Shown piece after piece: positions 9,270-46,738 of a DNA stretch of 64,000 bases. Position 1 is the first letter of the stretch; the number at the start of each line of letters is the position of its first letter. Made by a program: the position numbers and the translations under genes. Under the pieces are notes generated by a model that saw only the letters and a list, made by a program, of their open reading frames with translations, did no database searches and was not told where the DNA came from. Origin of the DNA: Asterias amurensis (lineage: Eukaryota; Echinodermata; Asteroidea; Forcipulatida; Asteriidae); NCBI RefSeq assembly GCF_032118995.1, contig NC_092660.1:21122001-21186000 (forward strand), in the 5' to 3' direction.

Positions 9270-11330
9270 AGTAGGAGGTCTTGTTTTCGAGGTGTTCCTA
9301 AAGTCGTGGCAAATCTTTTACCTCTCTGTGCGCGATGTAAAAAGTCCCTAGATAAAAATTGTGTGGTTTTATTTAGCAAGCAAAGAGTCTCCTCTCCATT
9401 GACCAAAACTTAGAAACACTGCAGCACGTAAGGCTCCACTGGTTATTTGCACTTGTATCGTAGGAGGTCCTGTTTTCGAGGTGTCCCTAAATTCGTGGCA
9501 AATATTTTACCTCTCTGTGCGCGATGTAAACAGTCCCAAGATAAAAAATGTGTGGTTTTATTTGCCAAGCAAAGAGTCTCCTCTCCCTTGACTAAAACTT
9601 AGAAACACGTAAGGCTCCACTGAATATTTGCACTTGTAAATGCAAAAAGTTTGCTATTTTAGGCATTTCTACAAGGTATAAAAATATGCCATAATGTTGA
9701 GGCCATATAAAAATATTTGCCCACTGAAAAAGTTTCATCAAACACTTTTTCAATTCACAATTCATGATGATCAAATCATGTGACTAAATATATTGCTGAG
9801 CATTCTGGAAAAAAAATAGAGAGGCTTAAAGAAGCCATGTGCCTTATATCATTTTCTAATAGTTTTGGAGATTTTTTTTTGAACCCTCCGATCAATATTA
9901 TTATTTATATTAAAATTTAAACGAGCAGCTTGTTGATTCAATTATCACTGTTTATTTATACGCTTTATTATAAATTTTAAGAAAAAAAAGGGGGAAAAAA
10001 ATAGATAAAAATCAGATTTGAAAGCCAATGATTATTCACACTTTTTATTAAATGATTTATTTTTGTTATTTTTTGCAAATTACCATGGTAATTTAAAAAT
10101 TTCATTAAAAAATGTTTTGAATAAAACGAAGACAACTGCTGGCTATATAGTCATACACAGAGTCTCAAAGAACACTTGTAGTCACTGTAGATGTTTCTTC
10201 CATGTATGGCTTCACCGGGAAACCATGCTTTCTTGTTTGCGTGAAAACAGGAAAAACTCAAAACAAATGGGGCCAGTTGAAGTCATCGAAGATCGGTGTG
10301 TAGTGTGAACATTTCAATGTCCATCAAGTTTTAATATATGTTTGCATACTTCATATTAACAAAAGAAGGTAATTTGGGCATCGGTTGATATAAGGCATCA
10401 TTACTTTTTTCCCAATTCAAAGAAAAAGGCATAATAGCGTGAAAACTGGTAAGAGGAGGATATAATAAGTTGTAATGTAAATGCAAAAAGTTTGGTATTT
10501 AGTTAGGGGGTTAGGCATTTCTACAAGGTACAAAAATATGTCATAATGTTGAGGCCATATGAAATTATTTGCCCATCGAAAAAGTTTCATCAAACGCTAT
10601 TTCAATTCACAATTCATGATGATCAAATAATGTGACTGAAATTTTTGGTGTGCATTCTGGGAAAAAAAAATACAGTAGGCTTAAATAAAGAAGCCATACA
10701 GTGTGCCTTATTTATTATATCATTTTCTAATGTTTTTTGAGATTTTACTTTTTAACCCTAAAAAAATATCAATACTATTATTAATATAAACAATTTAAAC
10801 ATTAGCTTGTTGATTCAATTATCACTGTTTATTTATACGCTTTATTATAAATTTTAAGAAAATAAAAAAATAACAATAAAAATAAAAATCAGATTTGAAA
10901 GCTAGTAATTATTCACACTTTTTATTATTAATTTTTTAATTTTTGCAAGTTACCATGGTAATTTTTAAAACTTAATAAAAAAATATTTTGAATAAAATGA
11001 AGACAACTGCTTGCTACAGAGTCAAACACAGAGTCTCAAAGAACACTAAGTAGTCACTGTAGATGTTTCTTCCATGTATGGCTTCACCGGGAAAACGTAC
11101 TTTCACGTTTGCTGTGAAAACAGGAAAAACTCAAAACAAATGGGGCCAGTTGAGGTCATCGAAGATCGGTGTGTGGTATGGACATTTCAATGTCCATCAA
11201 GTTTTAATATTTGTTTGCATACTTCATATTAACAAACAAAGATAATTAGGGCATCGGTTGATATGACATCATTATTTTTTTCCCAATTCAAAGAAAAAGC
11301 CATAATACCGTGAAAACTGGTTATATAGAA
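9270..11330. repeat. Direct duplications of about 190 bp and 840 bp
   Basis: TAGGAGGTCTTGTTTTCGAG at 9270 recurs at 9462, carrying about 140 bp of near-identical following sequence. Then 9636-10450 (AATGCAAAAAGTTTGCTATT onward) recurs at 10481-11320 with small indels, including ACTGTAGATGTTTCTTCCAT and TGGGGCCAGTTGA. Short ORFs in both copies are frame-broken relative to each other, so I see no gene. Confidence 0.75.
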
Positions 11331-32387: not shown

Positions 32388-33163
32388 ATCAGCTTCTTTC
32401 TTTCTTGTGGTTATATCAGTTCAAACTAGGAAACTATCACGAGATGGTTTAGTGAATTAACAGGAAACATTGCGTTGTGCCTTTCCTAAACCAACCTTCT
32501 TTCTTTCTTGTAGTCAGGTAGTTATATCAAGTCAAACTAGGAAACTATCACCAGGTGGATTAGTGAATTAACAGGAAACATTGCGTTGTGCCTTTCCTAA
32601 ACCAACCTTCTTTCTTTCTTGTAGTCAGGTAGTTATATCAAGTCAAACTAGGAAACTATCACCAGGTGGATTAGTGAATTAACAGGAAACATTGCGTTGT
32701 GCCTTTCCTAAACCAACCTTCTTTCTTTCTTGTAGTCAGGTAGTTATATCAAGTCAAACTAGGAAACTATCACCAGGTGGATTAGTGAATTAACAGGAAA
32801 CATTGCGTTGTGCCTTTCCTAAACCAACCTTCTTTCTTTCTTGTAGTCAGGTAGTTATATCAAGTCAAACTAGGAAACTATCACCAGGTGGATTAGTGAA
32901 TTAACAGGAAACATTGCGTTGTGCCTTTCCTAAACCAACCTTCTTTCTTTCTTGTAGTCAGGTAGTTATATCAAGTCAAACTAGGAAACTATCGCCAGGT
33001 GGATTAGTGAATTAACAGGAAACATTGCGTTGTGCCTTTCCTAAACCAACCTTCTTTCTTTCTTGTAGTCGGGTAGTTATATCAAGTCAAGCTAGGAAAC
33101 TATCACCAGGTGGATTAGTGAATTAACAGGAAACATTGCGTTGTGCCTTTCCTAAACCAACCT
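32388..33163. repeat. Tandem repeat, seven units of 111 bp
   Basis: Units contain TTCTTTCTTTCTTGTAGTCA, AACTAGGAAACTATCACCAG and ACATTGCGTTGTGCCTTTCC. The first unit is diverged; the other six are almost identical, which suggests recent expansion. Confidence 0.92.
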
Positions 33164-33437
33164 CTGTCAATGATTGGAGCATGTTTGTGGGTAGCAGGTT
33201 TGTCTATTGAGACTGAGGATTTTAAGAGAAGGATGAATCATATTGAGTGAGTAAGTGGATGACCCAGGCACAATTTAATTGAAAACATTGGGAGAACAAT
33301 GAGAAATTCACGATATATTACAGGGTCAACAAATGTACATGTATGCCATTGTGTATGTGGCTGACATTGGGAAAACCTCGCACCTGAGAAAGCCATACAG
33401 TCTCTACACGTGTATGAATGGCTACACCCCTACATGT

Positions 33438-33882
33438 ATGTTTCGACATCATGCCTATGTTTCGACATCATGCCTATGTTTCGACATCATGCCTATGTTT
33501 TGACATCATGCCTATGTTTTGACATCATGCCTATGTTTCAACATCATGCCTATGTTTCGACATCATGCCTATGTTTCAACATCATGCCTATGTTTCAACA
33601 TCATGCCTATTTTTCAACATCATGCCTATGTTTCGACATCATGCCTATGTTTTGACATCATGCCTATGTTTCAACATCACGCCTATGTTTCAACATCATG
33701 CCTATGTTTCAACATCATGCCTATGTTTCGACGTCCCGTCTTTGTTTCGACATCATGCCTATGTTTCGACATCATGCCTATGTTTCAACATTATGCCTAT
33801 GTTTCAACATCATGCCTATGTTTCAACATCATGCCTATGTTTCGGCGTCCCGTCTTTGTTTCGACATCAAGCCTATGTTTCT
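33438..33882. repeat. Minisatellite, about 23 units of 19 bp
   Basis: The unit is CGACATCATGCCTATGTTT with C/T changes at fixed positions. A variant CGACGTCCCGTCTTTGTTT appears twice, 114 bp (six units) apart, a sign of block duplication. Because 19 is not a multiple of three, all three forward frames stay open with a 57-bp period. Confidence 0.92.
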
Positions 33883-33999: not shown

Positions 34000-34122
34000 T
34001 TAGAGTTTACGTTTACCACCTGTTGCTGATGAATGTTGGCTAAGCTTTCTCTTTAAGTCATTGACAGTTTGTTTTAGATGAGCAACTTCTCTTTCTGAAG
34101 CTGCCTGGGCATTCAACATTTT
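34000..34122 (-). CDS. CCDC152-like exon 8 and stop
   Basis: The acceptor is CTCCATTTCAG. 40 codons plus TAA, encoding the last coiled-coil helix (EREVAHLKQTVNDLKRKL) and a basic tail. Confidence 0.82.
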   Translation of the reverse strand, partial: KMLNAQAASEREVAHLKQTVNDLKRKLSQHSSATGGKRKL

Positions 34123-37100
34123 CTGAAATGGAGAGAAATAAAATAGAGATCAAAATCAAGAAATTCAGATCTGGTTATTGGTGTAACTTGATGAAGTTCC
34201 ATCACTTATTTAGAACCGTTTGTAAAAAGAAAAAAAAAAAAAGAGTTAGTCATAGGATTTCCTTCAGATATAAAAAAAACTAAAACTGTTTGCTACATGT
34301 ATGACATGAATCTGAACATTGCCTCCAATGACGTGAATGATGCCACTCCCTTATGTAATGGAGGGGGCATGGAGTGGGCAAAAGCTGCTGTGTAAAACCT
34401 TTGTTTATGTCACTGATTAGCCGGAGTGCCTGCTCCCCAAACATAACATTACAATTTAATAATAAAAAAAATTTAAGAAAATGTTCTGCAGGTCCCCATA
34501 GTAAAAAAAAAAAAAAATTTGAGCCAAGATGTAGTAAACTATTGCACTAGAAAAAGACAGAGTAACAATTTCTCACCTCTCTGAAGATATGACTGCCGAC
34601 AGAAGCCGGTTTTTCATTTCGTTGGATAGTTCTTGTGTTAGCACTCTGTAGTTTTAACAGTTTGGCATCGTACTGTAAAACAAATAAAACAAAAACAAAA
34701 CGAGACTCTTAAAGGCAGTAGACACTATTGGTAATTGTCAAAGACTAGCCTTCACAGTTGGTGTATCTCAACATATGCATAAAATAACAAACCGGTGAAA
34801 ATTTGAGCTAAATCGGTCATCGAAGTTGCGAGCTAATAATGAAAGAAAAAAAACCTTTTCACGCGAAGTTGTGTGCGTTTAGATGGTTGATTTCGAGACC
34901 TCCAGTTTTAAATCTGAGGTCTCGAAATCAAGTTCGTGGAAACCTATTTCTTTCTTGAAAAATATGGCACTTCAGAGGGAACCGTTTCTCACAATGTTTT
35001 ATACCATCAACCTTTCCCCATTACTCATCACCAAGAAAGGTTTTATGCCAATAGTTATTTTGAGTAATTACGGGGAGTGTCCACTGACTTTATAAGAGTT
35101 GTAAAGAACCAGAGTGTAACATTTATTACCTAAAATTAAACCATTTCCTTTATACCTCCAATCTCAACTTGACAATCCCAGTCTGGTGACCCTTCTCAGC
35201 TTCAGCAATTTGCTTCTTAAGTTGTTTATTCTCAGCTGACTTAACTCGAACTTCTTTCTCCATAGCTGTGAGCTCTTTTGCCTCTGAGGAAATCAACAAT
35301 TGAAAGAGTAAAGCACAACATTTATAATATGACTAACAACTTGTTTTTACCATTTCACCAATGTGTATTATTTAAAGTACTCTATACTCTGTACTTTCCA
35401 AATTTCTGTGTAAAATATCCACTGGAAAATCACTCGGGCGGGATTTGGGTTGACACACAAACTTTGCATGGCAAGAGGCAGTAAAAATCTTGAGGGTGTC
35501 ATCCAACGGCCCATTAAACAAATTAACATCTACTAAGATGATATAGCTCTGTAAGGCATGATGGGTAACTCTTTGATGTTTTTGAGGCAAAGGTTGTTGT
35601 CTTGATGGCTTTGTCTTACTCTAACTGTGTCTTTAAATCTTTCAGTTGTCATTTTATTTGTTTCAAGATGTTTTGAAGGTAACATGGAGATCTTTGAAAA
35701 ATTTCATGAAATAAGAAGAAATCCTGAAAATTCACAGGACTTCATGTATTTTATTTTATTGATAATGGGAAAGGTGGCAGGGGTCTAAAATTTGTTAACC
35801 GAATCAGTGCTGTAAATTGACAATTTAAATTAAGTGAATTGACTAAAATGGGCTACAGATTGTAAGAATTACGTAAATGATCTGACTTAGCATAATGGCC
35901 TGTTGATGAGTTTCCTCTATCTGGCATGTGTGTTCAGCGTGGACTTCTTCTAGTTGTCTCTCTACTGTAGTAATAGTTTCTTTACATTCCTATAAATATC
36001 ACAAGTAGGTAACTCATTATACTTTGTATTTTATTCCGAAACTGGAACAGACCCCATAACCCTGCTGAGGGTTTCTGTATAATAATAAATTACAGTTTGT
36101 GAGGAAGTCGCACAGAAAGCTAGGAGTGTTAACTTTTAAACAAAAACATACATTTGTAATGCACCATTTACCACACAGTTTTATTTCTTTTTAAAATGGT
36201 AAATAAACAGAAATTTTGCAACACACCTTAAGCTTCATCACAATAGTTCAACAAACAAATTTATACCTATGTTTCCTGCCAAGATAATGATGGAACTACT
36301 TCAGTTCAGAGATTTAGCTTCTAAAAACTCATTTTACTTTTGGGAAATTCTAAATTTGCACCAGGGAAAAAGAACATTGTGTTTTACCTTTCACTGATGT
36401 ATCATTATACTGATAATGTGCTTTGCCAAATAGAGCAGATTATCAGTCACAAATTTGACATTCGACATAGTTTTGCTGGTAACTTTACTCTGGTAGGCAA
36501 TACACACTGTAGTTTTGTTGTGCTGAGCTTTTTTGTGCATCCCAACCATAACCCAGTTCAACCTGGCAATGATGTTTCATATATCAAAGCAAAAGTCATA
36601 GAACACAAACATTATCGTGCTTTGCAACATAGAACAGAATACCAGTCAGAAATTGTATATGTGATTTGGTAATTTTGCTGGTAACTTAATCATGTTTATT
36701 CTGGTAGGCATGTAGTTTTGGCGTGCTGAGCTGTCTTCGTGTGTGGAACTGGGTCCAGTCACCACTGCGCTTTTACCCTTATAAGAATCAGACAGTTGCA
36801 TCGGTTGCATCAAGATTTATTTTGCTCATCTCTTCAGTAGAGCCTCGCTCTTCAACTAGCAACTATCCCAAATATATTAATGGTAATTTTGGCTGACAAC
36901 AGCTCGTCAACCCTTCCATGGCAAAACACTGAGCCTAACTTGATCAACAATGACATTAATTGAGAAAAGCAAATACAGAGAGAAGCTGTTTTGCCATAAA
37001 ACGTGACTAGAGTATAAGAAGAGACCGATCGGTTGACCCATTTCACCTGAGGTCATCAGCAGAAAAATCTTGAATGCGCCATACTGGGCCCAATTTCATA

Positions 37101-40100
37101 GAGCTGCTTAAGCACAAAATTTTGCTTAAGCAAAAAAATCCTTGCTTAGTAAAATCAGATTACCGACCAAGACTCCATTCAATTGTTATGCTAAGTAAAC
37201 AACAGCTAAATACCAGTCACGAGCAATGTATATGGCATGAAATTTTGGCCAGTAACATGTGTAAAACAAGCGAGCTAATTTCGTGCTTAAGCAAATTTTG
37301 TGCTTAAGCAGCTCTATGAAATTGGCCCCTGGTGGGCAATTTCACTGTGCGTTTTTATATATAACTCTATGCTGCGCGTCATGCAGTAAAGTGTGCATTT
37401 TAGGCGACGCGGCGTTAATACACGTAAACCTAACTGCCAACGAGCGTGGCATTGTTCGCTGTGTGTGATGCGCGTGCAAGGGATCAATAGGCACTTTATT
37501 TTAGTATTTACATCAAAGTATGCCTTTGAAACTTTGAAATTGGAAACAAAAATCCCCTCAATTAACCCAAAATAATGTTGTGACATTTTAAGTTAGGTCT
37601 GTTTTGCCATGATTGTAACTAGCGGGATGCCGCGCGGCTAGATGAGGAGGATTCTAGTATACAAATGCTGTAAAAGGTAATGTGGGGGCAAGGGAGGTAT
37701 TCTTACAGGTAATAATCATTTCGTAGGATTGGATACGAAATTGTATTTATGATCGGTATGGAAATTTGTCATTAATGTTGTATTTTGACAAAAATTAATT
37801 GTTGAGCGTGCACAACCCAGTTGTGAAACGTCGCGACGCGTCGCCTCCTCTCCTCACCTTCTCTCTTGCGTTCCCCAACTTAAGGAATTGGTGTTTGTTG
37901 CTGGAATTGAGCTTTAATATTGGGGATGGGTATACTTGGCAATGATGGTACTTGGCATGATATGTAGGGTATTTCGTAATATTTTAGTGTTGATCGAGCG
38001 GGCCAACGGCTTATCCGTAATGTGGATTATGTTTCGCCTCTTTTACGCATAGTTTTAATTCATTCGGCTTTTGTCATTGTGTCAATTTTATCCACTGCAT
38101 TGAGTATTTCCCAGCTAAGATGTCTGATGTAAGGGTAATAATTCTTAGTCGAGTACAAATATAGCACGTACACTGCTCCAATGACACACTTATTTTATTG
38201 TTTTGAGCACATTTGGTACAGTTACACTTGGCAAAATGTACATCCTGAGTCCCGCCCAAACTGCTTTCAATATAGTTACGAACTTATGAAACATTTGCCT
38301 TGTTATTTTGAGGGTCTGTACATCCAGTTTTTATGGTGGCCCTGAAGGGACATCGCATATCGCAAACGTGTGCGCATACGTATGCAATGTCGTGAAACAA
38401 TTCGCGAATATGTGCGCACACGTATGCAATGTCGTGAAACAATTCGCGAATATGTGCGCACACGTATGCAATGTCGTGAAACAAATCGCGAATATGTGCG
38501 CACACATATGCAATCTCGTGAACCAAATCGTGAATATGTGCGCACACGTATGCAATTTCGTGAACCAAATCGTGAATATGTGCGCACACGAATGCGATTT
38601 GTTTTGCAATGTCGTGAATTTTATTGCATACCATGTTGCATACCATTAAGATGATGTCATAGTTGTGGATAATTTGTTACCGATCTAGGGAGTACTGTGG
38701 CGCTACATCAAGCTCCCTCTGTAAAGCATGTGCGCCAAAATTGGTTCACCAACATGATCAAGCAGCAGGAAGTTGCAACTTTGATGGTACTCGTTGTGGC
38801 TGCATGTTTAATCGAGTTGTTGAATAACGGTAATCACGACTCGGCTAAGCATTCAAAAGTTGCGCCTTTACACATAGTCACACTAGTCGCCCAAGCTTAG
38901 TCACCCAAGCTTAGTCGCCCAAGCTTAGTCGCCCAACCTTAGTCGCCCAAGCTTAGTCGCCCAAGCTTAGTCGCCCAAGCTTAGTCGCCCAAGCTTAGTC
39001 GCCCAAGCTTAGTCGCCCAAGCTTAGTCGCCCAAGCTTAGTTGCCCAAGCTTAGTCATAACCCTCTATTTGCTGTCTCTTCAGTGTAAGGAGATTTGACA
39101 GGGCAATACATATCTATGTACCTCTTTCACAGCATCAATGTCCTCTTTAATTCTCTGAATTGTTTCCTTGAGTTGCTTGTTCTCATCTGTCAAGAAAAAA
39201 AGAGATGATTGGTTCATCTTTCCTCACTAGTGACAAACTGGAGAAAGAAACAAATTTGGAAGGTCATTTTGGTGTTTTAAATCATTTTAGGTGGTGGTGC
39301 GAGGGCGGTCGGGGGGGGGGGGGGGATGGGGGGCAGAGGTCTGAGCATTTGTAACCACTTGCCCTACAACTACCCCCCCCCTCTAGTTATAACCATACAA
39401 CATTACTACAGTCACTAGAACCACAAACAACTTCATTTCCGTATCAACAACAATTGCTATTTTTTCAGAACTTTTTTCTATTAAGTAAAAATAGTCTGGA
39501 AAAAACATATTTTTGTTTTTTTTGTGTTTGACAAAAAAATATCATCTAGAGATTGATTATTAAAAACAACTACACAAAACTCTTAGAAGTAAATACTGAA
39601 CTTTTCTTGGTCACACTGTCCTGAAGGCAAGATATAATCTAAGAAGTAAATACTGACCTTCTAGATTGCATTTCTTAGTCACACTGTCCTGAAGGCCAGA
39701 TATAATCTAAGAAGTAAATATACTGACCTTGTAGATTGCATTTCTTAGTCACACTGTCCTGAAGGCCAGATATAATCTAAGAAGTAAATACTGACCTTCT
39801 AGATTGCATTTCTTATTAGTCACACTGTCCTGAAGGCCAGATATAATCTAAGAAGTAAATATACTGACCTTCTAGATTGCATTTCTTAGTCACACTGTCC
39901 TGAAGGCCAGATATAATCTAAGAAGTAAATATACTGACCTTCTAGATTGCATTTCTTATTAGTCACACTGTCCTGAAGGCCAGATATAATCTAAGAAGTA
40001 AATATACTGACCTTCTAGATTGCATTTCTTAGTCACACTGTCCTGAAGGCCAGATATAATCTAAGAAGTAAATATACTGACCTTCTAGATTGCATTTCTT

Positions 40101-43100
40101 ATTAGTCACACTGTCCTGAAGGCCAGATATAATCTAAGAAGTAAATATACTGACCTTCTAGATTGCATTTCTTAGTCACACTGTCCTGAAGGCCAGATAT
40201 AATCTAAGAAGTAAATATACTGACCTTCTAGATTGCATTTCTTATTAGTCACACTGTCCTGAAGGCCAGATATAATCTAAGAAGTAAATATACTGACCTT
40301 CTAGATTGCATTTCTTAGTCACACTGTCCTGAAGGCCAGATATAATCTAAGAAGTAAATATACTGACCTTCTAGATTGCATTTCTTATTAGTCACACTGT
40401 CCTGAAGGCCAGATATAAACTAAGAAGTAAATATACTGACCTTCTAGATTGCATTTCTTAGTCACACTGTCCTGAAGGCCAGATATAATCTAAGAAGTAA
40501 TTATACTGACCTTCTAGATTGCATTTCTTATTAGTCACACTGTCCTGAAAGCCAGATATAATCTAAGAAGTAAATATACTGACCTTCTAGATTGCATTTC
40601 TTAGTCACACTGTCCTGAAGGCCAGATATAATCTAAGAAGTAAATATACTGACCTTCTAGATTGCATTTCTTATTAGTCACACTGTCCTGAAGGCCAGAT
40701 ATAATCTAAGAAGTAAATACTGACCTTGTAGATTGCATTTCTTATTAGTCACACTGTCCTGAAGGCCAGATATAATCTAAGAAGTAAATATACTGACCTT
40801 CTAGATTGCATTTCTTATTAGTCACACTGTCCTGAAGGCCAGATATAATCTAAGAAGTAAATATACTGACCTTCTAGATTGCATTTCTTAGTCACACTGT
40901 CCTGAAGGCCAGATATAATCTAAGAAGTAAATATACTGACCTTCTAGATTGCATTTCTTATTAGTCACACTGTCCTGAAGGCCAGATATAATCTAAGAAG
41001 TAAATATACTGACCTTCTAGATTGCATTTCTTATTAGTCACACTGTCCTGAAGGCCAGATATAATCTAAGAAGTAAATATACTGACCTTCTAGATTGCAT
41101 TTCTTAGTCACACTGTCCTGAAGGCCAGATATAATCTAAGAAGTAAATATACTGACCTTCTAGATTACATTTCTTATTAGTCACACTGTCCTGAAGGCCA
41201 GATATAATCTAAGAAGTAAATATACTGACCTTCTGGATTGCATTTCTTAGTCACACTGTCCTGAAGGCCAGATATAATCTAAGAAGTAAATATACTGCTG
41301 ACCTTCTAGATTGCATTTCTTATTAGTCACACTGTCCTGAAGGCCAGATATAATCTAAGAAGTAAATATACTGACCTTCTAGATTGCATTTCTTAGTCAC
41401 ACTGTCCTGAAGGCAAGATATAATCTCACGCAGCTGATTCAACTCTGAAAAATAACAACATTTATAAATAAAGACATTTTATATACAAACTTGCTTTATT
41501 ACTCTCCTGTTGTATTCACATTATTCCTCAATAAATTAGTATTGTAACCGTGAACAATGAAAAACAAAATAAATACATCACATAAACAACTGTTTACAAT
41601 AAAACAAGAAACAAATTAAAAAAGTATACAAAGGCCTAAATGAAAATACATGCATAATTCCCATTTACTCCTTCATGAAGAGAAACAATTAGATAGATCG
41701 TATAATTAAAGTGCGCCTTCTGTCAGTGTAGTGTATGCAGACACTAAGTGATCCGTTTATAGAATAGGATGTCATTGTTTCATGCGAGATCTTGTTGTAC
41801 GAGAGCTCTGTTGTTTTGCTTGTTTTAACCACGTGAATAGAACCCAAGTATTGACGACGTAAGAACACAATCAGTCAGTGCTGCTTCTCTTTATGTTGAA
41901 TTGTATAGTCCCCAAAGCATCCTAATTGAAACATCACACATACTCTTCATGTAGTCAACTGGCAAGCAATTTCAGGTTTTAACATGGGAGGAAAAGGGAA
42001 GTAAAACTCGTTCAAAATGCAAGGCTCTGGTGGCTGGGTTCAAACTGGCTACCAAGGTAAAAGGCAGGAACAGAAACCACCGAGCCAACCCGACCTAATT
42101 CTAAAGGTTTTGCCAAGTGAGGACACCACACAAGTAGTGTCATGGGTGGGATTAAAACCCCCACTCTGATAACTCTGATGTTCATAGCACTGATACCACC
42201 TTGCTTCTACTCACCATCTTGTGAGCTGTATTCTCAAGTAGTGTCATGGGTGGGATTAAAACCCCCACTCTGATAACTCTGATGTTCATAGCACTGAGAC
42301 CACCTTGCTTCTACTCACCATCTTGTGAGCTGTATTCTCAAGTAGTGTTATGGGTGGGATTAAAACCCCCACTCTGGTAACTCTGATATTCATAGCACTG
42401 ATACCACCTTGCTTCTACTCACCATCTTGTGAGCTGTATTCTCAAGTAGTGTCATGGGTGGGATTAAAACCCCCACTCTGATAACTCTGATGTTCATAGC
42501 ACTGAGACCACCTTGCTTCTACTCACCATCTTGTGAGCTGTATTCTCAAGTAGTGTTATGGGTGGGATTAAAACCCCCACTCTGGTAAATCTGATGTTCA
42601 TAGCACTGATACCACCTTGCTTCTACTCACCATCTTGTGAGCTGTATTCTCAAGTAGTGTCATGTGTGGGATTAAAAACCCCACTCTTGTAACTCTGATG
42701 TTCATAGCACTGATGATACCACCTTGCTTCTACTAACCATCTTGTGAGCTGTATTCTCAAGTAGTGTCATTGGTGGGATTAAAACCCCCACTCTGATAAC
42801 TCTGATGTTCATAGCACTGATACTACCTTGCTTCTACTCACCATCTTGTGAGCTGTATTCTCAAGTAGTGTCATGTGTGGGATTAAAAACCCCACTCATG
42901 TTCATAGCACTAATAATACCACCTTGCTTCTACTCACCATCTTGTGAGCTGTATTCTCAAGTAATGTCATGGTGGGATTAAAAAAAACCACTCTGATAAC
43001 TCTGATGTTCATAGCACTGATACCACCTTGCTTCTACTCGCCATCTTGTGAGCTGTATTCTCAAGTAGTGTCATGTGTGGGATTAAAACCCCCACTCTGA

Positions 43101-45861
43101 TAACTCTGATGTTCATAGCACTGATACCACCTTGCTTCTACTCACCATTTTGTGAGCTGTATTCTCAAGTAATGTCATGGTAGGATTAAAAAAAACCTAT
43201 CTGATAACTCTGATGTTCATAGCACTAATGATACCACCTTGCTTCTACGCACCATCTTGTGAGCTGTATTCTCAAGTAGTGTCATGGGTGGGATTAAAAC
43301 CCCCACTCTGGTAACTCTGATGTTCATAGCACTGAAACCACCTTGCTTCTACTCACCATCTTGTGAGCTGTATTCTCAAGTAGTGTCATGGGGGGATTGA
43401 TAAACTCAATTTACAGGTGTTTTTTGCACTGAAACCACCTTGCTTCTACTCACCATCTTATGAGGGGTATTCTGAAGTATCATATGGGTGGGATTGATAA
43501 ACTCAACTTATTTCTTGCACTGATACCGCCTTGCCTACTACTCACCACCTTTGAGTTAATCTCAAGTAGTGTCATGGGTGGTCTGGCATGATAATAAACT
43601 CAACCTACTGGCGTTTCTTGCACTGAAACCACCTTAGCCTACTACTCACCAACTTGTGAGGTATTCTCCGTCTTCTTATCCAGCTTAGCTTGGCTGGTCA
43701 GAGTCAAAATCTCCTCTCTCAATGTATTGTTTTGGAGAACTAAATCCTGATGTTTCTGAAATGATAGTATTTTGAAATAAATTAATCCTCTCATCGAATT
43801 ATACATTTTAAATAATATAATTAATAATCTTTTCAAAAAATATAATCTTTAATTCTAAAAAGAGGTTTGTATGCCCATGGCAACCCCACTATTACCAATA
43901 CTCACCCTTAATATCGATATTGCATTTCTAAAGGCTTCCTATTCGGGATATGGGTCGCAGAATGTTTTTTTAACTTTTGTTTAATTGTACTTCTAAGTTC
44001 TTTCTTGCTGTAAAAAATGAAAATCACACTTCAATTCATTTTAACAACAGTCAACATTAATATTTTATAAACTGGATAAACCTGTAGGTTTTGTTCACAG
44101 AAAACCATTGTGAAACATGGTCAGTTGAGTAACTAACTTATATTTATAACATTTTAACAATATTATTTGAGTTACTTATACTATAGGGTATTAGTACGAG
44201 ATGTCCTCACTGCATGATGTGGGCGCTTACTATCACGATTCCCCTCTTACATGTAAGCGCCGAATTTCTGCGCTAGCCTTGGAAGCCTAGAATGCCTAGT
44301 AACTGGAAGTATGCACGCGCATAAGCCAAAATTGCCGCTAACCCATGAAATACGCTTGCCGTAAGCACAGAATTCCCTGCTTCCGTAAGCGCCGATTGTA
44401 CAGTAACCAGAGCCATTAAGTTGGGCACAGGTGTATTGCGGCTGGATCCATTAAGTTATTCCATGTTATTTACAAATTTGAAAATAAGCCCGACCCGAGA
44501 GTGCGCTGTTCGTGACGTCAATCAAGGGGGGATGAATCGCATGCAGTGCCAACCCAAGATAGCGACGCTTGGCGCAAGTTAAAAACATGCCCTCAAAGTT
44601 GAAACAATTTTGTTTACGTTAGGCAAATGCTCCTTTAGGTTTGTTACCTCTTTCAGGTACCTTCTTCGACTTCCCCACTAGCTTGAAAAATTGTTGGGAT
44701 GGCGTCATGTTTCAGAAAAGAACTTTTCTCTTCATGTCAAAATGTGTAGTGTATGCCGGATTCTCTAAACACGACGGCTAGAAGTGTTTGCTGCACAACG
44801 CTGGAAAAGGCTTTAGTTGTTTTGCTGCATCCAGCAGCAATTAATACACCTGGTCGTCATTGCCGGTAAAATGCATGAAAAAAACTTTTTTCGAAACGTA
44901 CAAACTTAGGACTAGAACTTGATTGTATTTGCATTTGTGTGTTTGATGTTCGATCGAGGCAAAGTCTTTCTCGATTGACGTCACAAAAGGAGTAGGCGGA
45001 GTCACCCCCCACACAACTTTTTTTTTTTTTTTTTTTTTTTAACATATTAATCGTTAAAAACAGTCCCTAAAAAAATAGTTTATTGTTCAGAAACACTCTA
45101 ATGTTTGAAGAAAAACAATTCTATTTCCAGGTGACTTTAATTGTTTATTCATATTCCACTCATCAAAACAAGCTTTATTTTGACAAAATACAACTTCCAG
45201 GTGACTTTTAGTATACGAGGTCACAAGGAGGGAATAAACTGCCAGGACCCCATACCCTGCGTAAGTTGTGTAATGTAAAGGCTGATTATGACATGACTAG
45301 AGACAATAGAGACAGTGTTTGAGTGGAAGTCACTTGAATGAAAGGAGAAGACACTAAGACAGGCCGTCAGTCTGTCAATGCTCTACAAGATACAGCACAA
45401 CCAATGGCACCATCAATGCCTCCCATCATGTTCACCCGTTACCTGTCTCCAAATAACCAATGATCCCTCCAACAACAGATCATAACCCTTGTAAACTCCT
45501 GACCACCAGTATCACATGATCACTATATATAATATAGCTGCACTCGGCTTTATGAAAGTTCCTTCAACAGTCAACTCTGGAACCTGTTCCCAGTTATGGT
45601 GTTGGCCGCCCCTACCTTATCAGAGGCCATCAGTTAGGGGAGGAGTTGCATCAATCAATGCAAGTCTATTAATTATTATTTATAGACTAGGCCTACCCGC
45701 ACTTTTTAGGCTTTAGTTACTATATAACTTAATAAGCAGCAGCCCAGTTTTTACTTGCACTTTGTATTTGTCTCTTTACTTACCCCGTACCAAGTCGTGA
45801 AATCTTTGGAAAGCAAATTGAGGTCTACCTGCCTACTTAGTCTACGTGAACTTGTATCCAT
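34000..45861 (-). CDS. Coiled-coil protein, CCDC152-like, complete eight-exon gene
   Basis: Minus-strand exons 45861-45784, 43755-43650, 41444-41376, 39186-39122, 35989-35887, 35283-35156, 34672-34577 and 34122-34000 join in phase to 768 nt, giving 255 residues, about the length of vertebrate CCDC152. Diagnostic stretches are VDLNLLSKDFTTW near the N-terminus, ENKQLKETIQRIKE, IVKLRLEYDAKLLKLQ, and a tail with HLKQTVNDLKRKLS ending GGKRKL. These follow the order and spacing of CCDC152 as I remember it. The protein is almost entirely predicted coiled coil, with no signal peptide, membrane segment or catalytic motif. Its cellular role is poorly known. Introns 2 and 3 contain tandem arrays derived from the neighbouring exon ends, and intron 4 has two further arrays. 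An AGAGGGCGCC motif lies about 150 bp upstream of the ATG. Confidence 0.8.
34577..34672 (-). CDS. CCDC152-like exon 7
   Basis: Acceptor TTGTTTTACAG, donor GTGAGA. 32 codons in phase 0 (YDAKLLKLQ then HIFRE). Intron 6, just upstream, holds a full TTAA-type foldback element at 34710-35096. Confidence 0.82.
34710..35096. mobile_element. Full foldback element, family B, in CCDC152-like intron 6
   Basis: It is a close copy of 29472-29862 from TTAAAGGCAGTAGACACTAT to GGAGTGTCCACTGACTTTATA. It fills most of intron 6. Confidence 0.82.
35156..35283 (-). CDS. CCDC152-like exon 6
   Basis: The acceptor ends TTTCCTCAG; the donor is GTATAA. It encodes a Lys/Glu-rich coiled coil ending in GIVKLRLE, one of the best-conserved parts of the family. 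Confidence 0.82.
35887..35989 (-). CDS. CCDC152-like exon 5
   Basis: The acceptor is GATATTTATAG and the donor is a GTCAGA-type site after ATGCTAA. 34 codons plus one base (ECKETITTVERQLEEV onward). The phase fits exon 6, whose acceptor leaves AG to complete a Lys codon. Confidence 0.78.
35990..37084. other. CCDC152-like intron 4, part next to exon 5
   Basis: An imperfect direct repeat (TTTGCTGGTAACTTTACTCTGGTAGGCA at about 36473 against about 36676) and unsupported short ORFs. No exon is recognised. Confidence 0.45.
37085..37331. mobile_element. Foldback element, family C, in CCDC152-like intron 4
   Basis: The arms are GGGCCCAATTTCATAGAGCT and AGCTCTATGAAATTGGCCCC, each followed by paired copies of TTGCTTAAGC. 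About 245 bp, non-coding. Fragments with the same AATTTCATAAAGCTGCTT motif occur near 18010 and 28595. Confidence 0.8.
37332..38353. other. CCDC152-like intron 4, middle part
   Basis: Mixed composition, with a GC-rich patch (GTCGCGACGCGTCGCCTCCT) near 37830. Short ORFs have no support. Confidence 0.45.
38354..38620. repeat. Minisatellite, about six units of 42 bp, in CCDC152-like intron 4
   Basis: The unit is TATGTGCGCACACGTATGCA followed by ATGTCGTGAAACAATTCGCGAA. The first part is a long alternating purine-pyrimidine tract. Both strands stay open in several frames through the array. Confidence 0.9.
38884..39055. repeat. Minisatellite, about 12 units of 14 bp, in CCDC152-like intron 4
   Basis: The unit is TAGTCGCCCAAGCT, almost invariant. 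It ends about 65 bp from exon 4. Confidence 0.92.
39122..39186 (-). CDS. CCDC152-like exon 4
   Basis: The acceptor ends TTGACAG; the donor is GTACAT. It encodes ENKQLKETIQRIKEDIDAVKE with clear heptad spacing. Confidence 0.8.
39311..39333 (+). repeat. G-run, possible G-quadruplex
   Basis: Fifteen G followed by AT and six G, in intron 3 of the CCDC152-like gene. It is on the non-template strand relative to plus, so the gene transcript has the C-run. Confidence 0.7.
39606..41375 (-). repeat. Minisatellite of about 25 exon-3-derived units (70/73 bp), CCDC152-like intron 3
   Basis: Each unit, read on the gene strand, holds the last 49 or 52 bp of exon 3 (ATATCTGGCCTTCAGGACAG to AATCTAGAAG), its donor GTCAGTA, and about 20 bp of intron ending TTACTTCTTAG. 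Units of 70 bp and 73 bp (an extra in-frame AAT codon) mostly alternate, giving a 143-bp higher-order period. The array runs straight into the real exon 3. Confidence 0.93.
41376..41444 (-). CDS. CCDC152-like exon 3
   Basis: Acceptor GTTATTTTTCAG, donor GTCAGTA. It encodes LNQLREIISCLQDSVTKKC. It is the only unit of the adjacent array with the full exon 5' part (CTGCGTGAG) and a real pyrimidine tract, so it is taken as the functional copy. Confidence 0.8.
42118..43649 (-). repeat. Minisatellite of about 14 units (104 bp) carrying the exon-2 splice donor, CCDC152-like intron 2
   Basis: On the gene strand each unit begins AGAATACAGCTCACAAGATG then GTGAGTAGAAGCAAGGTGGT, echoing the exon 2 end (GAGAATACCTCACAAGTTG) and its donor GTGAGTAGTAGG. 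The unit continues with GTGGGGGTTTTAATCCCACC. Twelve units are close copies; the two nearest exon 2 are diverged. Confidence 0.9.
43650..43755 (-). CDS. CCDC152-like exon 2
   Basis: Acceptor CTATCATTTCAG, donor GTGAGTAG. 35 codons plus one base (KHQDLVLQNNTLREEIL onward). Its last bases plus the donor are the sequence echoed about 14 times in the array that follows in intron 2. Confidence 0.8.
44490..45005. mobile_element. Diverged foldback element related to 24245-24575, in CCDC152-like intron 1
   Basis: The left has GTTCGTGACGTCAATCAAGG, the middle CAGCAATTAATACACCTGGT, and the right TCTCGATTGACGTCACAAAA followed by a T-run at 45017-45039. The interior differs from the first copy. Confidence 0.65.
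45784..45861 (-). CDS. CCDC152-like exon 1 (start codon)
   Basis: ATG at 45861-45859, 26 codons, phase 0, donor GTAAGT. It encodes VDLNLLSKDFTTWYG, which matches the family N-terminus in register with exon 2. Confidence 0.75.
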
Positions 45862-46021: not shown

Positions 46022-46374
46022 CGTGACGGCAACTTCTCGAATGCGTGTGATGGGGGGGAGCTTGCGCACTAATAATGTCCACGTCACTCAATGGGTGCGA
46101 CTCGAAGAGTAGAGCAATAAAGTCTAATTGTTGTTTTAGGAAAAATTATTTTAACTTGTGGATGTTTGAAGTATTATTAAGGTAAGCATTTATTTGGGAT
46201 GGGGAAAACCACAAGGGTTAAAGACACTGGACACTATTGGTAAATTGCCAAAGACCATGTAATTCTGCAAAAAGTAGATTCTGCGCATCCCAAACACTTT
46301 TGAGATAGTAAAACCTTTCCTCCAAAAAGTTCGCAAGGCAAAATTCGCAAAAGGTGCGTTATAAACAGGAGTAT

Positions 46375-46738
46375 TATTAGCTGTTCCAACCGTCCGTCGG
46401 AACAGGTATTGTTTTCGTCGAGATTTTTATTATTTTTATTATTATTAGCTGTTCCGATCCAGTCGGAACAGCTATTGTTTTCGTCGAGATTTTTATTAGC
46501 TGTTCCGACCGTCCGTCGGAACAGGTATTGTTTTCGTCGAGATTTTTATTACTTTTATTATTATAGCTTTTCCGACCGTCCGTCGGAACAGGTATTGTTT
46601 TCGTCGAGATTTTTATTATTAGCTGTTCCGATCCAGTCGGAACAGCTATTGTTTTCGTCGAGATTTTTATTAGCTGTTCCGACCGTCCGTCGGAACAGGT
46701 TTTGTTTTCGTCTAGATTTTTATTGTTTTTATTATTAT
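46375..46738. repeat. Array of six hairpin-bearing units of about 55-65 bp
   Basis: Units alternate between two hairpin types: TTCCGACCGTCCGTCGGAA and GTTCCGATCCAGTCGGAAC. Each is followed by TTGTTTTCGTCGAGATTTTT and ATT repeats. Both strands are open by chance. The array abuts the repeat starting at 46738. Confidence 0.85.

Follow-up and report, generated by a model that had tools for sequence, protein, structure and literature searches.

Minisatellites that copy two consecutive exon-intron boundaries of a CCDC152-like gene in the starfish Asterias amurensis

How can a gene be spliced correctly when its introns carry dozens of copies of its own splice donors? This question is raised by a CCDC152-like gene on the minus strand of a 64,000-nucleotide stretch of the Asterias amurensis genome (contig NC_092660.1, positions 21,122,001 to 21,186,000; hereafter the window, in which all positions are counted from its first letter). 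Two tandem arrays sit at consecutive donors of this one gene, in introns 2 and 3, and the units of each extend from the last bases of an exon across its 5' splice site into the intron, so that every copy presents a potential decoy donor. Our analysis indicates that both are very probably exon-boundary minisatellites of the kind named mirages in amphioxus, passively removed with their introns while the true donors remain in use.

The array in intron 3 starts within exon 3 itself. On the minus strand, 26 unit starts run from 41424 to 39638, comprising the exon's own end (unit 1), 24 donor-bearing copies and a donorless terminal copy (Table 1). Units are 70 or 73 bp long, with the exception of one of 76 bp, two of 71 bp and one of 68 bp, and the long form is the short form plus one triplet. 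In units 1–25, an exon-end part of 49 or 52 bp is followed by an intron part of 19–24 bp (21 bp in 21 of the 25), and identical sequences are shared by 8 units of the short form and 7 of the long form. The splice signal AGGTCAG is retained in all 24 copies, with the donor reading AAGGTCAGT in 23 and AAGGTCAGC in the other, while CTTCTTAG stands at the end of each of the 25 unit joints, giving an acceptor-like sequence that reads TTTACTTCTTAG in 24 and ATTACTTCTTAG in one. Long and short forms alternate at 19 of the 23 neighbour steps among units 2–25 (shuffle mean 11.9, p 0.002), and Tandem Repeats Finder (TRF) scores of 3250 at period 73 and 3317 at period 143 are far above chance. A single base, changed from T to G, distinguishes the exon from all 24 copies: TCTTGCC stands in units 1 and 26, and the 24 units between them have TCTGGCC (23) or TCTGGCT (1). 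The middle of the array is homogenised, and its outer units are excluded from this homogenisation.

The original prediction for this DNA had described the end of exon 3, its donor and a piece of intron as amplified about 25 times in the adjacent intron, with acceptor-like joints, duplication by dimers and a homogenised middle between older-looking ends. The unit anatomy confirms the amplification, the nature of the joints and the contrast between middle and ends. The array is real, but the number of decoy donors it holds is 24; likewise, the alternation of unit lengths supports dimer-wise duplication, but it has breaks. The array in intron 2 and the existence of a named class for such repeats were both missing from that prediction.

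The alignment of the intron 2 unit runs unbroken from the end of exon 2 through the donor into about 93 bp of intron, with a score of 77 compared to a maximum of 32 in 1000 shuffles. GT is kept in 13 of the 14 exon 2 decoy donors and replaced by GC in the other, and the copies adjoining the exon are the most worn. We compared 12 splice sites of the gene, namely the six donors and six acceptors of the exons found (ends formed by the start and stop codons being excluded), and copies crossing the boundary occurred only for the exon 2 and exon 3 donors.

Table 1. Exons of the CCDC152-like gene and the two boundary-spanning arrays, in window positions
Feature	Position	Strand	Details and basis
Exon 1, coding part	45784..45861	-	26 codons from the ATG (coding start at 45861); donor GGG|GTAAGT at 45783; sequence and frame
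Exon 2	43650..43755	-	106 bp, phase 1 at end; donor TTG|GTGAGT at 43649; frame, acceptor and donor
Second array, intron 2	42131..43581	-	period 104 (TRF); 14 decoy copies of the exon 2 donor
Exon 3	41376..41444	-	69 bp, phase 1 to 1; donor AAG|GTCAGT at 41375
Exon 3 array, units 2–25	39639..41354	-	24 copies of the last 49/52 bp of exon 3, the donor and about 21 bp of intron
Exon 3 array, terminal unit 26	39580..39638	-	TCTTGCC as in the exon, donor lost, then unique intron 3; end set by eye
Exon 4	39122..39186	-	65 bp; donor GAG|GTACAT
Later exon	35156..35283	-	weak match
Later exon	34577..34672	-	weak match
Last coding exon	34000..34122	-	stop TAA at end; weak match

Neither unit had matches outside this locus, which supports our explanation. 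The assembly searched is a single haploid one of 491,506,623 bases in 23 contigs (491.5 Mb); a 151-bp query for the exon 3 array gave 25 matches among the best candidates scored, and the intron 2 unit gave 14 among its own, all of them here. In being tandem arrays of near-identical units, the two resemble ordinary minisatellites of the A. amurensis genome. Their closest published counterparts are found in amphioxus, in globin genes whose exon-intron boundaries are duplicated in tandem, an arrangement called mirage after the Adh3 case (PMC3087553); further examples have been described in troponin C and PGBD5 (PMC3902484). As in Adh3, the globin genes BflGb6 and BflGb9, troponin C and PGBD5, the starfish repeat units run across an exon-intron boundary and so reproduce its splice site. 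The units of amphioxus mirages range from 10 to about 160 bp (PMC3087553, PMC3902484); many of their copies, though not all, contain splice signals, as do the starfish copies. In amphioxus, the outer units are excluded from homogenisation (PMC3087553), and the exon 3 array resembles that of BflGb6 in being homogenised in the middle with its ends left out. Unlike the amphioxus cases, the host is a starfish and two arrays occupy consecutive donors of one gene; the numbers also differ, with 24 and 14 decoys compared to 3 and 6 units in two BflGb6 haplotypes. No echinoderm mirage was among the matches listed in searches of the open-licence PubMed Central literature, only a part of which was directed at echinoderms. 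We take a cephalochordate host to be the range of mirages so far and not their defining trait, and by their anatomy the starfish arrays belong with them. This is a known repeat class, in a phylum that is new for it as far as the literature was searched, and doubled in one gene.

Arrays of the mirage type have been suggested to give rise to new introns (PMC3087553), and in intron gain by tandem duplication, as in ATP2A1, potato RdRp and fission yeast, AGGT-bearing copies make possible new donors and acceptors (PMC4974935). The starfish copies could likewise offer new donors and acceptors. Unlike in those cases, they sit within an intron that already exists and reiterate the donor of that intron; there is no sign of a new intron, and none is required to preserve the frame through exons 2–4.

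Exons 2, 3 and 4 have canonical AG/GT sites and form a single open frame of 80 codons. The residues encoded by exons 3 and 4 match the human CCDC152 sequence taken as reference at 15 of 38 positions (E 1e-4 for one comparison), and the match spans the exon 3/4 joint. The name of the gene is provisional and depends on this reference, whose start the exon 1 product also resembles. Because exon 3 lies in the open frame of exons 2–4 and the protein matches this CCDC152 sequence, the copying ran from exon to intron. The three later exons match the reference protein weakly and in the same order, each alone at chance level. The exon phases imply at least one further exon between 39122 and 35283, and a search of the region between exon 4 and 35283 did not find it. 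Vertebrate CCDC152 adjoins the selenoprotein P gene; with such a neighbour in mind, the window was searched for selenocysteine insertion sequence (SECIS) elements and other Rfam families, and none was found at gathering thresholds.

The consequences of decoy use can be predicted from the frame. Splicing from any decoy donor of the exon 3 array would lead to a premature stop (24/24), the exon 2 decoys would give an immediate stop (14/14), and inclusion as a pseudo-exon of any of the 25 exon 3 units tested, of which unit 1 is the exon's own end, would likewise lead to one. Any use of a decoy would thus produce an mRNA with an early stop, and the arrays would therefore be tolerable only if mostly ignored. 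The stops at exon 3 had been foreseen in the original prediction, which had also proposed that the array must either be ignored or act as a splicing switch. A switch of this kind would work by regulating how often decoy donors or pseudo-exons are used, generating early-stop transcripts and lowering the expression of the gene; since every decoy gives a stop, reduction is the only direction in which it could act. The stops at all exon 3 and exon 2 decoys are compatible with this idea, as are the acceptor-like joints, which make each copy a complete pseudo-exon of 49 or 52 nt. However, chance alone would be expected to supply a stop to any reading that leaves the frame, no evidence of decoy use was found, and neighbouring pseudo-exons are just 19–24 nt apart, a spacing too short for an intron. 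Moreover, the amphioxus counterparts are reported to splice normally (PMC3087553, PMC3902484). The switch is therefore unsupported, and we consider it very unlikely.

Passive arrays that leave with their introns are the most likely explanation in our analysis, by comparison with amphioxus, where RT-PCR (reverse-transcription PCR) suggests that splicing is undisturbed (PMC3087553). Each array probably originated when a short stretch was duplicated once, the copies meeting at a few shared bases; when read by eye, the joints show AG/GAGA-like bases. It would then have lengthened by slippage or through unequal exchange (in the exon 3 array, partly in dimers of 143 bp), and its middle would have become homogenised. 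The cell would keep using the true donors, as in amphioxus, with the decoys mostly ignored. Several points weigh against this explanation. The decoy donors match the true donor in strength (an identical 9-mer in 23 of 24), and the joints read carry 11 pyrimidines in 14 positions, equal to the acceptor of exon 3 itself; decoy sites as good as the true ones leave their being ignored unexplained. We infer normal splicing in A. amurensis from amphioxus. For exon 2, the exon part of the match alone is weak, with a score of 26 that was equalled by 9 of 1000 shuffles. Finally, the human CCDC152 that we take as reference has glycine at the codon that differs, agreeing with the array and not with the exon, so which base is older is clouded.

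The T-to-G change raises the possibility that structure favoured the copies that carry it. At the level of DNA, units forming a stronger hairpin could slip more in replication and so have taken over the array, a process compatible with passive removal. The change ranks 2nd of 183 in stability for minus-strand single-stranded DNA, but 56th of 183 on the plus strand, and the unit as DNA is not significantly more stable than shuffled sequences (z -1.0 and -0.7 for the copies). A contribution of this kind seems unlikely, though conceivable.

At the level of RNA, the same change could have silenced the decoys, in addition to the explanation we prefer. In each copy, CUGGCCUUC pairs with the donor-containing GAAGGUCAG, whereas the exon has CUUGCCUUC with one mismatch; the T-to-G in the 24 copies thus closes a 9-bp RNA helix that would bury the decoy donor, and the array could spread as its decoys were silenced. 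In a lone 63-nt unit, the change ranks first among 162 single changes outside the donor by the predicted cost of opening the donor, which is 9.0 kcal/mol for the exon and 12.9 and 14.0 kcal/mol for the copies. For the 70-nt unit as RNA it ranks first of 183 in stability, compared to 14th of 183 as RNA of the opposite strand. Relative to shuffles, the short copy (z -2.7) and the long copy (z -3.1) are predicted to be stable and the exon unit is not (z -0.6), and a four-unit stretch folds better than 200 of 200 shuffles (z -4.6). When 50 nt of upstream and 15 nt of downstream sequence are included, decoys would cost 10.6–15.7 kcal/mol to open, all 24 of them above the 8.7 of the true donor. In a built array of eight copies, the change raised the modelled ratio of true to decoy openness in three of three settings (0.36 to 0.88, 0.50 to 0.99 and 0.97 to 1.52), and in intron 2 the predicted openness of the true donor exceeds that of the median decoy 1.8- to 52-fold.

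Other predictions weigh against masking, a hypothesis that was itself formed only after the folds had been seen. When the donors of the real array are ordered by openness under four settings, that of exon 3 itself takes places 16, 19, 6 and 14 of 25. Compared to an array with T in all copies, the true/decoy ratio of the real array rises in two of the four settings and falls in the other two (0.19 to 0.36, 0.51 to 0.39, 0.53 to 1.04 and 0.56 to 0.35). Of the 183 single changes in the built array, T-to-G comes no higher than places 9, 60 and 39 by its effect in closing decoys, and places 68, 70 and 67 by its effect on the ratio. Other choices of flanking length give overlapping values: 3.2 for the true donor and 3.2–4.7 for the decoys with 30 nt upstream and 15 nt downstream, 3.6 and 3.1–8.9 with 50 and 50, and 7.5 and 5.8–10.9 with 80 and 40. 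For intron 2, the fold of the unit is unremarkable, the true donor is no more open than the mean decoy in three of four settings, and it ranks 2, 5, 5 and 7 of 15. Once neighbouring units are included, the models thus give the true exon 3 donor no clear advantage in openness over the decoys. Masking during transcription is possible in these models. We nevertheless regard self-masking as a doubtful addition, and more doubtful still the specific proposal that the array silences its own decoys, with a hairpin folding each decoy 5' splice site as the RNA is made and the mismatch in the true exon leaving that site usable.

Tandem arrays are a known trouble spot for assemblers, and an artefact could in principle create such copies. 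However, the differences between units are structured, and the 1.8-kb array is much shorter than a high-fidelity (HiFi) read. The A. amurensis assembly combines PacBio HiFi and Hi-C data in 22 scaffolds totalling 491,537,102 bp, with a consensus quality value (QV) of 48.51, and its authors also prepared a library pooled from nine tissues (PMC10625585); a second assembly of the species is smaller, at 482,994,179 bp (PMC11090083). Given HiFi reads and this consensus quality, a false 1.8-kb array is unlikely, and we regard an artefact as highly improbable.

Other tandem arrays were surveyed in 264 kb, consisting of the window and 20 loci of 10 kb, with a period of at least 25 and at least 1.9 copies, after merging overlapping rows and dropping shorter periods. 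This yielded 43 arrays, 26 from the 20 loci and 17 from the window, in which exons were mapped for the CCDC152-like gene alone. A general enrichment of donor motifs in minisatellites was not seen among the 43 (mean shuffle p 0.54, with one of 43 below 0.05), in a test weak enough that the two arrays of this gene themselves reach p 0.056 and 0.076. Four candidate arrays were read by eye, and three had no evident adjoining exon. The fourth, at 9561-9661 of locus L017, has an open frame on the minus strand, which continues through two copies of a 48-bp unit containing AAGGTATGC; these may be a coding repeat or possibly a small mirage. At another locus (L010:1-10000), the entire 10 kb is a 325-bp satellite.

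Several further arrays lie close to the CCDC152-like gene. Downstream of exon 4 are arrays of 14-bp units (38884-39056) and 42-bp units (38369-38595), neither of which matches the splice sites of the gene. A 19-bp array of about 23 copies (33437-33881) starts about 120 bp past the stop codon, perhaps in the 3' untranslated region, and is followed by an apparently recent 111-bp array at 32410-33163 (6.8 copies, 98% matches by TRF). About 500 bp upstream of the coding start, units of 51–68 bp at 46372-46724 form strong predicted hairpins (GTTCCGAC/GTCGGAAC; folding z about -3.6 to -11.7).

The two arrays of the CCDC152-like gene extend the mirage class from lancelets to echinoderms. If self-masking did operate, the tolerance of splicing would shape which minisatellite units can spread. 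The 38 decoy copies, 37 of them with an intact GT, beside two true donors constitute a natural test of splice-site choice, in which a cell must single out the correct site although near-identical sequences recur every few dozen bases.

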